Source: Anaerolineae bacterium (GTDB taxonomy: Bacteria > Chloroflexota > Anaerolineae > B4-G1). From it: a DNA stretch of 8,463 nucleotides. The stretch covers positions 1-8,463 of the forward strand of contig JAUWNP010000197.1 in assembly GCA_030612585.1 (NCBI GenBank), given 5' to 3'. The position numbers were made by a program, and so were the translations under genes. A model generated the notes under the pieces. That model saw nothing but the letters and a program-made list of their open reading frames with translations, was not told where the DNA came from and searched no databases. Shown one piece after another: positions 2,366 through 7,447 of this stretch; within the stretch, counting starts at the first letter, position 1; each line of letters opens with the position of its first letter.

Positions 2366-2962
2366 ATGTTCTCTGGCTTCCATAAAACAGTGATAATCCT
2401 GATGGTGATGGTTGCATTCTACGCTGCTGACTTCTTACTGATCTCGCGCTACGACCGGGAGCGACGCGCCGAGGGCAGCGGCAGAAGTTGGGATTTCACG
2501 GTCATGGTAGTGATAGCAGCGGCATTCCTGGTCGTGCAGCCAGCCCTACTACCGTGGCTGGGCCTGCACACTGATGCCTGGTGGGGTGGACTGCTACAGG
2601 CCGTGGGCATCTTGCTCCTCCTGGGTGCGTTTGGTCTGCACTGGTGGGCCCGGGTGCACCTGCGCCAATTCTATGCCGAGCGGGTGGAAATCCAGCCAGA
2701 GCACCGGCTGGTAACCAGCGGGCCATACGCTTACATGCGCCACCCTACGTTTACCTCGTTTTTCACGCTCGCCATTGGATTGGTATTAATCAACCCCTCT
2801 CTGCCTACGTTGGTAGCGGTCAGCTACACGTTCTGGGATTTCTCTCGGGCTGCGAGGCAGGAGGAGGAATTGCTTGCCGAGAACCTGCCTGGCTACGCCG
2901 ACTACATAGCCCGCACTCCTCGTTTCCTCCCGAGGCCACGCAAATGCCCAGGAGACAACTGA
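2366..2962 (+). CDS. Membrane methyltransferase, isoprenylcysteine carboxyl methyltransferase (ICMT/PEMT)-like
   Basis: The product is 198 residues with about four or five hydrophobic segments (around 8-27, 43-63, 74-95 and 130-155). The C-terminal half carries the hallmark of the ICMT/phospholipid methyltransferase superfamily: HRLVTSGPYAYMRHPTF (113-129), the acidic cluster RQEEELL (164-170) and the closing GYADYIARTPRFLP (176-189). In known members these residues bind S-adenosylmethionine, and the enzymes methylate lipophilic substrates at the membrane. The start at 2366 has GGGAG six bases upstream. Its stop lies two bases before the ATG of the Rv3378c-like gene, so the two are probably translated together. 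That context suggests methylation of a diterpene or diterpene conjugate, in place of the O-methyltransferase I recall beside the Herpetosiphon kolavelool synthase. The family is clear; the substrate is inferred. Confidence 0.85.
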   Translation: MFSGFHKTVIILMVMVAFYAADFLLISRYDRERRAEGSGRSWDFTVMVVIAAAFLVVQPALLPWLGLHTDAWWGGLLQAVGILLLLGAFGLHWWARVHLRQFYAERVEIQPEHRLVTSGPYAYMRHPTFTSFFTLAIGLVLINPSLPTLVAVSYTFWDFSRAARQEEELLAENLPGYADYIARTPRFLPRPRKCPGDN

Positions 2963-2964
2963 CT

Positions 2965-5393: not shown

Positions 5394-7073
5394 ATGATGA
5401 ATGTGATGAAAACCATCAGGCAACTTCTGGACGTCCCTTCGACAGATCCCGACGATCAACGACGCAGACGGCTGCTCAACATCCTGCTTCTGGGCATAGC
5501 GGCGCTTACGCTTTTGTCACTATCGGTGACGACCGTTTATGACATCACTGTCGGAGTTGGAGAACCGGAAGCCACCCTGCTTTACGGGGGCAGTCTTGCC
5601 CTGCTAGTCAGCCTTGCAATCACTTTTGCCATCAACCGTTACGGGCCAGGCTGGCTGGCCAGTTCGCTCTTTCTACTTCTCTTGACCATCCTTTTGGCCT
5701 TCAGCGACAAGCCGCAAGAAGTAGCGGATGGTCGCACTCTGTTTGCGTTTGCAATTCCAATCCTCATAGCAAGTGTCGTATTGCGTCCCCATACCAGTTT
5801 TATCATGGCCATCCTGGTCAGCCTGTTGATCGCCGCCATCGGACTAAGCGTGCAGATTGTACCTAATGCGTTTGCAATGATCGTTTTTTTTGCCATCGCT
5901 CTGGTATCCTGGCTCTCGGCCCGTAGCCTGGAGCGTGTCCTGGAGGATTTGCGTACCATCAACAGGGAACTGGACCAACGTGTGGAGCAGCGGACCCGTG
6001 AACTGGCCGAGGCTTTGAGCAGGAACCAGGCCATTCTTGCAGGCATCGCCGATGGGGTCATCGTCTTTGACAACGACGGCAAGGCCATCGTCGCTAACCC
6101 TGCCATCACCGGTCTCCTGGAACGACACGCGGACGAGATCATAGGCTACGACGTCGAAACGTTGATAGGCGCTGAGGTCAATGCCGACGACCAGGCATCA
6201 ATCGTCGCCCTGTTTAGGGACAGAGAAACACGTTACCCCAGCGTCAAGTTCGAGCGGGGCGACAAGACACTCTCGATGAGCGCTGCTCCTGTTCGCGTTG
6301 CCCCAGAAGAGATGATCGGCACTGTGGCCGTGTTCCGTGATTTCACTCGGGAGGCCAAAATAGATCGTATGAAAAGCGTCTTTGTATCTATGGCCTCCCA
6401 CGAACTGCGCACGCCCCTCAACGCCATCCTGGGCTACACCGATATGTTACAAGAGGGTGTCTATGGCCCGCTCCCGGACAAGCAACGCGAGGTGGTAGCA
6501 CGCATCATCGCCAACGCCGGGGAACTGCTCAACCTCGCCACCAATCTGTTGGACCAGGCCCAGATCGAAGCGGGCACACTGACACTCAACGTCACCTCGT
6601 TCACCCTGGCCGACCTGATTGACGGTGTGCAGGGCGTGATGAGCGTACTGGCGCAGGCCAAAGGGTTAGAACTGACCAGCCACATCGCCGACGATGTGCC
6701 CACCGCACTGTCCAGCGACCCGCAACGGCTGCATCAGATTCTGATCAACCTGGTGGGCAACGCCATCAAATTCACCGAAGAGGGAACGGTGCACGTAGAC
6801 GCTTACCGGCCCGACGCGGATCATTGGGCGTTGAAGGTATCCGACACTGGCAGCGGCATCCCAGCAGAAGCCCAACCCCACATCTTTGAACCTTTTCAGC
6901 AGGTTGATAGCTCGCCCAACCGGGAGCATACCGGGGCTGGTTTGGGGCTTTCCATCGTCAGACAACTGGCCACCTTGATGGACAGCGAGATCACATTGAC
7001 AAGCGAGGTCGGACATGGGAGTACATTCACTATTGTCCTACCGCTTGTCCCGACACAGGAGGAATTCTCATGA
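5394..7073 (+). CDS. Six-TM membrane sensor histidine kinase with PAS domain
   Basis: A 559-residue kinase. Six hydrophobic segments (about 29-49, 62-80, 87-103, 116-131, 137-152 and 160-176) with very short loops make a membrane-embedded sensor module without an extracellular domain. A charged, probably coiled-coil linker (178-210) leads to a PAS domain (about 211-320, with AGIADGVIVFDNDGKAIVAN at 216-235). HisKA follows, with the phosphoacceptor H336 in SHELRTPLN, then HATPase_c with the N box (N452, N456), DTGSGIP (484-490), FEPF (498-501) and GAGLGLS (514-520). All catalytic boxes are intact. It starts 10 bp after the cyclase stop, with AGGAG at 5375-5380 as a somewhat distant ribosome binding site; ATG 5397 or 5406 are alternatives. 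The downstream receiver gene overlaps by 4 bp and is its obvious partner. Compact multi-TM sensors often read membrane or lipid-phase signals, so sensing the operon's terpenoid or the membrane state is possible, but unproven. Confidence 0.93.
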   Translation: MMNVMKTIRQLLDVPSTDPDDQRRRRLLNILLLGIAALTLLSLSVTTVYDITVGVGEPEATLLYGGSLALLVSLAITFAINRYGPGWLASSLFLLLLTILLAFSDKPQEVADGRTLFAFAIPILIASVVLRPHTSFIMAILVSLLIAAIGLSVQIVPNAFAMIVFFAIALVSWLSARSLERVLEDLRTINRELDQRVEQRTRELAEALSRNQAILAGIADGVIVFDNDGKAIVANPAITGLLERHADEIIGYDVETLIGAEVNADDQASIVALFRDRETRYPSVKFERGDKTLSMSAAPVRVAPEEMIGTVAVFRDFTREAKIDRMKSVFVSMASHELRTPLNAILGYTDMLQEGVYGPLPDKQREVVARIIANAGELLNLATNLLDQAQIEAGTLTLNVTSFTLADLIDGVQGVMSVLAQAKGLELTSHIADDVPTALSSDPQRLHQILINLVGNAIKFTEEGTVHVDAYRPDADHWALKVSDTGSGIPAEAQPHIFEPFQQVDSSPNREHTGAGLGLSIVRQLATLMDSEITLTSEVGHGSTFTIVLPLVPTQEEFS

Positions 7074-7447
7074 GTAACTCGTTTGCACTGATCATCGAAG
7101 ATGACCGCGACGCCGCAGCCATCTTCTCAGAAGCATTGCAGGCAGCCGGATTTGAGACCGAAATCATCAGATCTGGCGACGCAGCCCTGGCACAGTTGGC
7201 TGTCACGACGCCGGACGTGGTAGTGTTGGACCTGCACCTGCCCCACGTGTCGGGGCCGGATATCCTGCGACACATTCGTGCCGACGCGCGGCTGACAGAA
7301 ACCCGTGTTATCGTCGCCACTGCTCACGCACACACTGCCGAAAGCATCCGCAGAGAAGCCGACCTGGTACTTCTCAAACCCATCAGCTTTAGCCAGTTGC
7401 GGGACTTATCCGCGATCTTGGACCCTGCCCGACAGACAGCCAATTAG
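7070..7447 (+). CDS. Single-domain response regulator (receiver only)
   Basis: The 125-residue product is one receiver (REC) domain with nothing attached. The acidic pocket is E10-D11-D12, the phosphoacceptor is D54 (VVVLDLHLP), the switch Thr is T84 (VATAHA), and the conserved Lys is K103 followed by Pro (LLKPIS). All essential residues are present. It shares ATGA with the end of the kinase gene and has AGGAGG at 7057-7062, seven bases from the start, so it is almost certainly co-translated with it. Having no DNA-binding output, it must act by protein contact, in a phosphorelay or on another partner. The small HTH protein at 702-923 is the only DNA-binding protein nearby, but nothing in the sequence ties the two. 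Confidence 0.93.
   Translation: MSNSFALIIEDDRDAAAIFSEALQAAGFETEIIRSGDAALAQLAVTTPDVVVLDLHLPHVSGPDILRHIRADARLTETRVIVATAHAHTAESIRREADLVLLKPISFSQLRDLSAILDPARQTAN

Follow-up and report, generated by a model that had tools for sequence, protein, structure and literature searches.

A putative diterpenoid operon with a dedicated membrane sensor kinase, recurrent in Anaerolineae, and its relation to the tuberculosinyl gene pair of mycobacteria

The mycobacterial locus for 1-tuberculosinyladenosine encodes the class II diterpene cyclase Rv3377c and Rv3378c, which has been described as a tuberculosinyl transferase (PMC11476799). Such a gene pair is already known outside mycobacteria, both from a published survey (PMC9814783) and from the kolavelool cluster of Herpetosiphon aurantiacus (Haur_2145-2147), whose gene pair, known to resemble the tuberculosinol genes, yields (+)-O-methylkolavelool (PMC4902038). 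According to the survey's passages on the Rv3377c subfamily of bacterial type II terpene synthases, it has 126 'terrabacterial' members, and Rv3378c equivalents are found in 44% of the clusters with Rv3377c homologues (PMC9814783). Here we describe a locus of this kind from an Anaerolineae bacterium (assembly GCA_030612585.1, contig JAUWNP010000197.1), in a stretch of 8,463 nucleotides that we call the window, where an Rv3378c-type and an Rv3377c-type gene stand in a row with genes for a MelB-like transporter, an ICMT-like methyltransferase, a histidine kinase and a receiver-only response regulator (Table 1). The pair itself belongs to the subfamily already surveyed (PMC9814783). What is new is that a kinase with one sensor type is the steady partner of the Rv3378c-type gene, and for this reason we count the operon as a new variant. 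The survey's text on the subfamily makes no mention of a kinase, of ICMT or of an origin of the mycobacterial genes (PMC9814783), and neither the steady kinase partnership nor the nesting of the mycobacterial pair within Anaerolineae, described below, was found in the open-licence literature.

Both mycobacterial enzymes are homologous over most of their length to those of the window, and the gene order is presumably the same, judging from the gene numbering. Unlike the mycobacterial locus, however, the window contains the ICMT, transporter, kinase and receiver genes, while the HAD hydrolase Rv3376, adjacent in mycobacteria, has no counterpart among the eight window proteins scanned with Pfam, none of which belongs to the HAD family. 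The enzymes also differ at two positions, with Asn instead of Asp at position 34 of the transferase and Gly instead of Ala at position 475 of the cyclase. The Herpetosiphon cluster likewise combines a class II cyclase, a synthase of the cis-prenyltransferase family and a methyltransferase, and also within Chloroflexota, but Herpetosiphon-like proteins are only 28% and 34% identical to those of the window, their genes run cyclase then synthase rather than transferase then cyclase, their methyltransferase is of the Methyltransf_11 type rather than ICMT, and they have Gly rather than Asn at position 34. With order, identity and methyltransferase type all different, the window is not a member of the kolavelool cluster.

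We consider it probable (roughly 0.7) that the window carries an operon for making a diterpenoid, equipped with its own membrane sensor kinase and belonging to a family found across the class Anaerolineae. The six genes, spanning 995-7447, are all on the plus strand and follow each other, from transporter to receiver, with intergenic gaps of 48, 2, -53, 10 and -4 bp, and because of this tight spacing we take them to form one operon. A search with the Rv3378c-like protein yields 2814 homologues at E<=1e-3, and the organism-named ones among the best 120 are four, all metagenome-assembled genomes (MAGs) of Anaerolineae or Chloroflexota; these named carriers are Anaerolineae bacterium SKW140 and the Chloroflexi isolates SpSt-1225, S1bins155 and TumbabinsA95. 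At the same threshold the window transferase found matches in 23 of 400 genomes drawn from the phylum, and its metagenomic relative P0126 in 52 of 396 drawn from the class, so that the Rv3378c-type gene is widespread in Anaerolineae.

For the gene neighbourhood we compared 32 loci, namely the window, the four named MAGs, 13 close-match genomes of the 23 and 14 from the P0126 search. This set leaves out 10 weak genomes, P0126 matches with E above 2.1e-53 and G431, whose match begins 6 bases from the edge of its contig; some query proteins were taken from the same loci, and L002-L005 are represented by their refetched versions L143, L145, L142 and L146, a 300-base probe of each having been found in its partner. 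In the stretch compared around the Rv3378c-type gene, a cyclase is found at 28 loci, the kinase sensor at 27 (26 on the same strand) and a separate receiver at 20; kinase and receiver share a frame at L005 (Pfam) and L033 (BLAST). The order transferase-cyclase-kinase on one strand occurs at 23 of the 32. Where at least 3.5 kb of downstream sequence is present (24 loci), the sensor is found at 22, the cyclase at 23 and a separate receiver at 19, and with a profile of the sensor a diverged copy is recognised at L157 (E 8e-15), immediately behind the cyclase, giving 23 of 24 and leaving L141. At the level of whole genomes, a sensor match of about 1e-30 or better is present in 13/13 genomes with a close Rv3378c-type gene, always beside that gene, versus 3/387 of the others (Fisher 6e-22, for related genomes and with both searches taken as the same 400-genome draw). 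Which of the two enzymes does the kinase follow, then? Transferase and kinase are found with no cyclase between or beside them at L042 and L101, and at 7 of the 28 cyclase-bearing loci the cyclase is only 34-42% identical to that of the window, which makes the cyclase the more exchangeable part. Over 23 loci, the correlation of sensor with transferase distances is r 0.66, versus 0.28 between transferase and cyclase.

The sequence-only reading of this DNA had already described an Rv3378c homologue followed by an Rv3377c homologue with a 53-bp overlap, in a presumed Chloroflexota host, and the gene coordinates confirm the pair and its overlap, while the host agrees with the titles (Chloroflexi or Anaerolineae) of the four MAGs with related loci. 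The combination with an ICMT-like methyltransferase, a transporter and a kinase/receiver pair is borne out by Pfam matches, and its members recur at the other loci compared. Such loci are also far from rare.

In sequence the kinase has H, N and G boxes (H-box SHELRTP at 335) and the HisKA and HATPase_c domains of Pfam, and with its receiver partner it constitutes a two-component system. A PAS domain lies between the membrane sensor and the kinase core. The sensor domain is hydrophobic and helical, was modelled with high confidence (mean predicted local distance difference test, pLDDT, of 95), matches no Pfam family above cut-off and has no counterpart among known folds in Foldseek at E<=0.001. 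Its top matches in VIA-align are the membrane domains of class III adenylyl cyclases (8buz, 8sl4, 7yzk, 8sl3), a likeness within the range of common helical arrangements, and we do not claim kinship. Neither do we regard the locus as a defence system, as PADLOC matched kinase and receiver only (best 2.7e-9, for the receiver part) and nothing in the other four proteins scanned. In prenyl-peptide quorum sensing of the ComQXPA type, a small pheromone-precursor gene lies between prenyl transferase and kinase; here the largest gap from transporter to receiver is 48 bp, which leaves no room for a separate peptide gene, only a short overlapping open reading frame being possible.

The association may extend beyond the class. 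Three further loci with one family code (L048, L049 and L051) have cyclase, synthase and methyltransferase genes with a kinase upstream, in the gene order of Haur_2145-2147, and from gene order and size they appear to be Herpetosiphon-like. At L048 Pfam calls a Methyltransf_11 enzyme, a hybrid kinase and, on each side, a receiver-only protein; L049 has proteins of this receiver family at both flanks, and none is called there at L051. The membrane regions of the three kinases match our sensor profile over nearly the whole domain, at E 0.0018, 0.0029 and 2.8e-5, which are weak values from a small search space, and we take them as suggestive only that the link between enzyme family and kinase may be older than Anaerolineae.

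The two enzymes themselves are clear homologues of the mycobacterial ones. Among solved structures the transferase matches Rv3378c best (3wqk, residues 3-292) and is 45% identical to it. Its model (mean pLDDT 82) superposes on Rv3378c chains with template modelling scores of 0.89-0.91 by target length, the next fold being that of cis-prenyltransferases at E about 1e-10, and no Pfam or NCBIfam family matches the protein at E<=0.01. The equivalents of Arg37, Arg38, Tyr51 and Tyr90 are all present. Both tyrosines feature in PDB titles, which name Rv3378c Y51F and Y51F/Y90F mutants solved with TPP, and of the 244 remaining alignment rows 241 have Tyr at position 51 and 243 at position 90 (257 of 264 rows, mostly metagenomic, were kept, seven fragmentary P rows being dropped). 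Two distant Rv3378c-type paralogues, L045 (G073:C27) and L046 (G012:C51), about 31% identical, have Asp34 and are without the Tyr51 equivalent; their surroundings differ as well (KAP NTPase/FGE-sulfatase and ABC genes; a transcriptional regulator).

The cyclase is 50% identical to Rv3377c, which is again the best solved structure (6vpt, residues 13-488), so that the assignment of both proteins to the Rv3377c and Rv3378c families, made in the sequence-only reading, stands. It falls within a 100/100 clade of 21 rows that includes Rv3377c, and the two group together again in a larger tree. The DGDD motif with the central Asp of DxDD and the equivalents of His341, Lys379, Trp380 and Tyr479, whose roles are described in PMC9814783, are retained. 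The base proposed for halimane formation is Tyr479, and Gly at position 475, as in the window, is described for the clerodane-forming Tpn2 and for 58.7% of the Rv3377c family (PMC9814783). A halimane is therefore a likely product of the cyclase and a clerodane a possible one, Gly475 occurring here beside Tyr479. Position 475 varies elsewhere, being Ala in mycobacteria, Gly at most other loci, Asp in G019, L069, L074 and three of the four metagenomic relatives of the mycobacterial cyclases, and Ser in the fourth. By analogy with the switch described for Tpn2 (PMC9814783), cyclases with Asp475 may make labdanes.

We propose the following scheme. The cyclase would protonate geranylgeranyl diphosphate and fold it into a bicyclic halimane- or clerodane-type diphosphate, from which the Rv3378c-type enzyme would strip the diphosphate using water or another nucleophile. 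Within the membrane the ICMT-like enzyme probably methylates the product, and the transporter may move it. Other tailoring is possible at related loci, where genes for FemAB/GNAT-like proteins (11 of the 32), GT87 (10), sulfotransferases (4) and radical SAM/B12 proteins (3) are close by; FtsX/MacB-like genes are found at 7. The membrane domain of the kinase occurs mostly at such loci, and kinase and receiver would be tied in function to what the Rv3378c-type enzyme makes, which they would either sense or control. Most likely, then, the product is a bicyclic diterpenoid of halimane or clerodane type, probably methylated in the case of the window and linked with a two-component system of its own. 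This reading is based on homology, catalytic residues, gene order, co-conservation and the tree placement of the mycobacterial pair, and from these we infer co-transcription, chemistry, methylation, transport, ligand and output. One locus, L101 (G012:C462), has an ICMT gene, the Rv3378c-type gene and, at the usual place of the cyclase, a radical SAM/B12 protein, together with a 371-residue sensor-bearing frame, a transporter 65% identical to that of the window and a second ICMT-like gene; two cyclases lie on other contigs of this genome, which is given as 8% contaminated.

Several points weigh against this reading. Only the genes are known here, product, expression and ligand being predicted. 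The methyltransferase and the transporter recur yet are optional: 10 of the 32 loci have ICMT immediately before the Rv3378c-like gene, and 8 have the transporter (both counts including the window), with 50-65% identity in the other seven and a position on the same strand no more than 8 kb away in six of the eight. At L141, despite 7.9 kb of downstream sequence, there is a receiver without a recognisable sensor, the kinase is on the other strand at L149, and at L142 it lies 7.8 kb upstream. In 19 more of the 400 genomes the sensor has weaker matches, G012 carries several additional sensor-domain kinases on six contigs besides that of L101, and correlated distances also arise from shared inheritance alone. 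At L091 (G393) and L092 (G047) there is a kinase of the same type with a receiver and no terpene gene nearby, and no Rv3378c-type match was found in either genome; these pairs could be what is left after a loss, or listeners. Pfam finds neither an output nor a DNA-binding domain in the receiver, which cannot itself bind DNA. Position 34 of the transferase is Asn, where 2/2 mycobacterial rows have Asp. Lastly, a transferase tree in which all 98 non-mycobacterial ingroup rows, metagenomic sisters included, are forced together is not rejected (p 0.109).

Some of these points are what would be expected if the system were a matter of regulation only, with the kinase sensing another cue (membrane state, redox or something bound by the PAS domain) and switching production of a diterpenoid that serves as a membrane or protective lipid rather than as a ligand. 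We regard this as a possible but less probable explanation. The PAS domain between membrane domain and kinase, the hydrophobic helical sensor and the kinase-receiver pairs kept in G393 and G047 fit it well, but it does not explain why the sensor stays with the Rv3378c-type gene even where the cyclase is divergent or missing, nor why sensor distances track that gene, and a receiver-only partner could not act on DNA directly. On the last ground kinase control of the operon, as suggested in the sequence-only reading, is kept only as a possibility; of that reading as a whole, the homologous pair accompanied by methyltransferase, transporter and two-component genes is supported, while export and a tuberculosinol-type product stay possibilities, the latter with Gly475 and Asn34 departing from M. 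tuberculosis.

Could the Rv3378c-type enzyme instead transfer the prenyl group to an acceptor (nucleoside, sugar or lipid), as its mycobacterial relative does (PMC11476799), with ICMT, GT87, sulfotransferase and FemAB-like enzymes finishing a diterpenyl conjugate? The variable tailoring-type genes adjoining the Rv3378c-type gene would suit such a scheme, which we nevertheless find unlikely, as kolavelool synthase of the same family uses water (PMC8131916) and position 34 sets the mycobacterial enzymes apart. Asn is found there in the window, in 5/5 metagenomic proteins nearest the mycobacterial ones and in 238/244 remaining rows (the other six being 3 Lys, 2 Gly and 1 Asp), that is, in 244/250 non-mycobacterial rows, counted separately from the Herpetosiphon-like rows (Gly in 3/3) and the distant paralogues (Asp in 2/2). 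Since the mycobacterial rows are nested among Asn rows, Asp34, which we take to matter for catalysis in mycobacterial Rv3378c, looks like a change on the mycobacterial stem, and a nucleoside product of the mycobacterial kind is therefore not to be assumed for the Chloroflexota enzyme.

More far-reaching is a terpenoid signalling system, in which the Rv3378c-type enzyme would make a tailored diterpenoid signal, the co-encoded kinase would be its receptor, passing it to the receiver-only protein, and the lineage of the tubercle bacillus would have taken the signal-making half, without the receptor, from an Anaerolineae-like donor for another use. We hold this version to be rather doubtful. That the pair outside mycobacteria usually comes with one type of membrane sensor kinase does suggest an original role in sensing or signalling, and it provides a candidate receptor.

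Where did the mycobacterial pair come from? Initial ortholog searches outside mycobacteria are reported to have failed, and plant-associated bacterial plasmids were proposed as the source (PMC11476799, 2024); Rv3377c had earlier been grouped with 'terrabacterial' enzymes (PMC9814783). Among the best 120 of 250 matches to Rv3378c, M. decipiens (72%) is followed by metagenomic proteins at 54-59% and then by others at 40-50%, of which the two listed with an organism name are Anaerolineales and Anaerolineaceae MAGs. For Rv3377c (best 120 of 1678) M. decipiens and M. lacus come first, then metagenomic proteins at up to 62% and, further on, one MAG each of Anaerolineales (54%) and Chloroflexota (51%). 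In a maximum-likelihood cyclase tree of 51 rows (frames <380 residues dropped, the same gene included more than once) Rv3377c joins G019 (97/97) within a 100/100 clade of Anaerolineae cyclases. In larger trees, from which frames of <=350 (cyclase) and <=200 (transferase) residues were left out, the mycobacterial cyclases fall together with G019, four metagenomic proteins and an Anaerolineales MAG in a clade with 100/100 support, and Rv3378c falls in one, equally supported, with G019, G270, G333 and five metagenomic proteins. Rv3378c is nested again in a 107-row transferase tree (8 rows dropped, P rows >=70% identical to a kept row left out), with partly low inner support and a bootstrap that is not settled. 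After removal of the long-branched L158 and L159, an Anaerolineae clade without the mycobacterial group was rejected for the transferase (32 rows, p 0.0074) and the cyclase (22 rows, p 8e-8), as it was when 20 rows of an earlier cyclase set were held as a clade (p 0.0135), the cyclase groups of both tests having been chosen after inspection of the tree. The genomes sampled for these trees are from Chloroflexota only, some branches are long and the closest relatives are metagenomic. Both mycobacterial proteins thus appear to nest within the Anaerolineae radiation, which points elsewhere than the plant-associated plasmids. No publication tying the tuberculosinyl pathway or its origin to Chloroflexi or Anaerolineae was found in the open-licence literature, and the placement puts forward a definite source, open to testing, for a gene pair linked to virulence.

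The reverse direction, acquisition of the Chloroflexota loci from mycobacteria or other actinobacteria, is in our opinion very improbable. The closest metagenomic relatives (P0126-P0130, P0248-P0250) have no known organism, and mycobacteria lying outside all other ingroup rows survived the one test mentioned above, but nesting among Anaerolineae rows in three tree analyses and the three rejections of an Anaerolineae-only clade argue against it. Histidine kinases are common in Chloroflexota, so the kinase pair might in principle have come to lie downstream by accident in this genome, an idea that is hardly credible given the conservation of one sensor type beside the Rv3378c-type gene at 27/32 loci and in 13/13 versus 3/387 genomes.

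Table 1. Features of the window
Feature	Position	Strand	Basis or remark
GPH/MelB-like MFS transporter	995..2317	+	PF13347 (MFS_2) 4.9e-50; TIGR00792 122 bits, below cut-off 231
ICMT-like integral-membrane methyltransferase	2366..2962	+	PF04140 9.9e-16; NF040696 59.7 bits, below cut-off 160
Rv3378c-type diterpene synthase/transferase (cis-prenyltransferase fold)	2965..3963	+	E 4.9e-78 to 3wqk
Rv3377c-type class II diterpene cyclase	3911..5383	+	E 1.1e-137 to 6vpt
Histidine kinase: helical membrane sensor (residues 1-205), PAS, HisKA, HATPase	5394..7073	+	Pfam, motifs
Receiver-only response regulator	7070..7447	+	PF00072 1.5e-19; acidic pair, VLDLHLP, LLKP
16-bp hairpin after tRNA-ligase gene	555..589		Possible upstream operon boundary

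The transporter, as the first gene of the putative operon, lies just outside the range (2366..7447) to which the sequence-only reading had assigned the locus. For the Rv3378c-like gene we chose the ATG at 2965, preceded by AGGAG, with ATG 2944 as the alternative start. Upstream lies the C-terminal part of a tRNA ligase (Anticodon_1, Pfam), which suggests a chromosomal location, and downstream, on the opposite strand, a DUF5698/DUF2179 gene (Pfam). The nearest genome compared, G001, has 29% of the sampled 31-letter words in common with the window; its contig starts inside the cyclase and continues with the same kinase, at 86-87% identity. No RNA family reached its gathering score in the window. 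Promoter-like sites number 10 versus a mean of 3.8 in shuffled sequences, and terminator-like sites 6 versus 5.8, which is the chance frequency; neither was used as evidence. Just upstream of the DUF5698/DUF2179 gene, at 8353-8380 on the minus strand, there is a 12/12 match to the sigma-70-type consensus with a 16-nt spacer. The intergenic stretch between this gene and that of the receiver contains a perfect 12-nt inverted repeat at 7536-7701 (TGTCATTGCGAG), with arms 142 nt apart, and a palindrome at 7630-7651, which together are perhaps a small interspersed repeat element.

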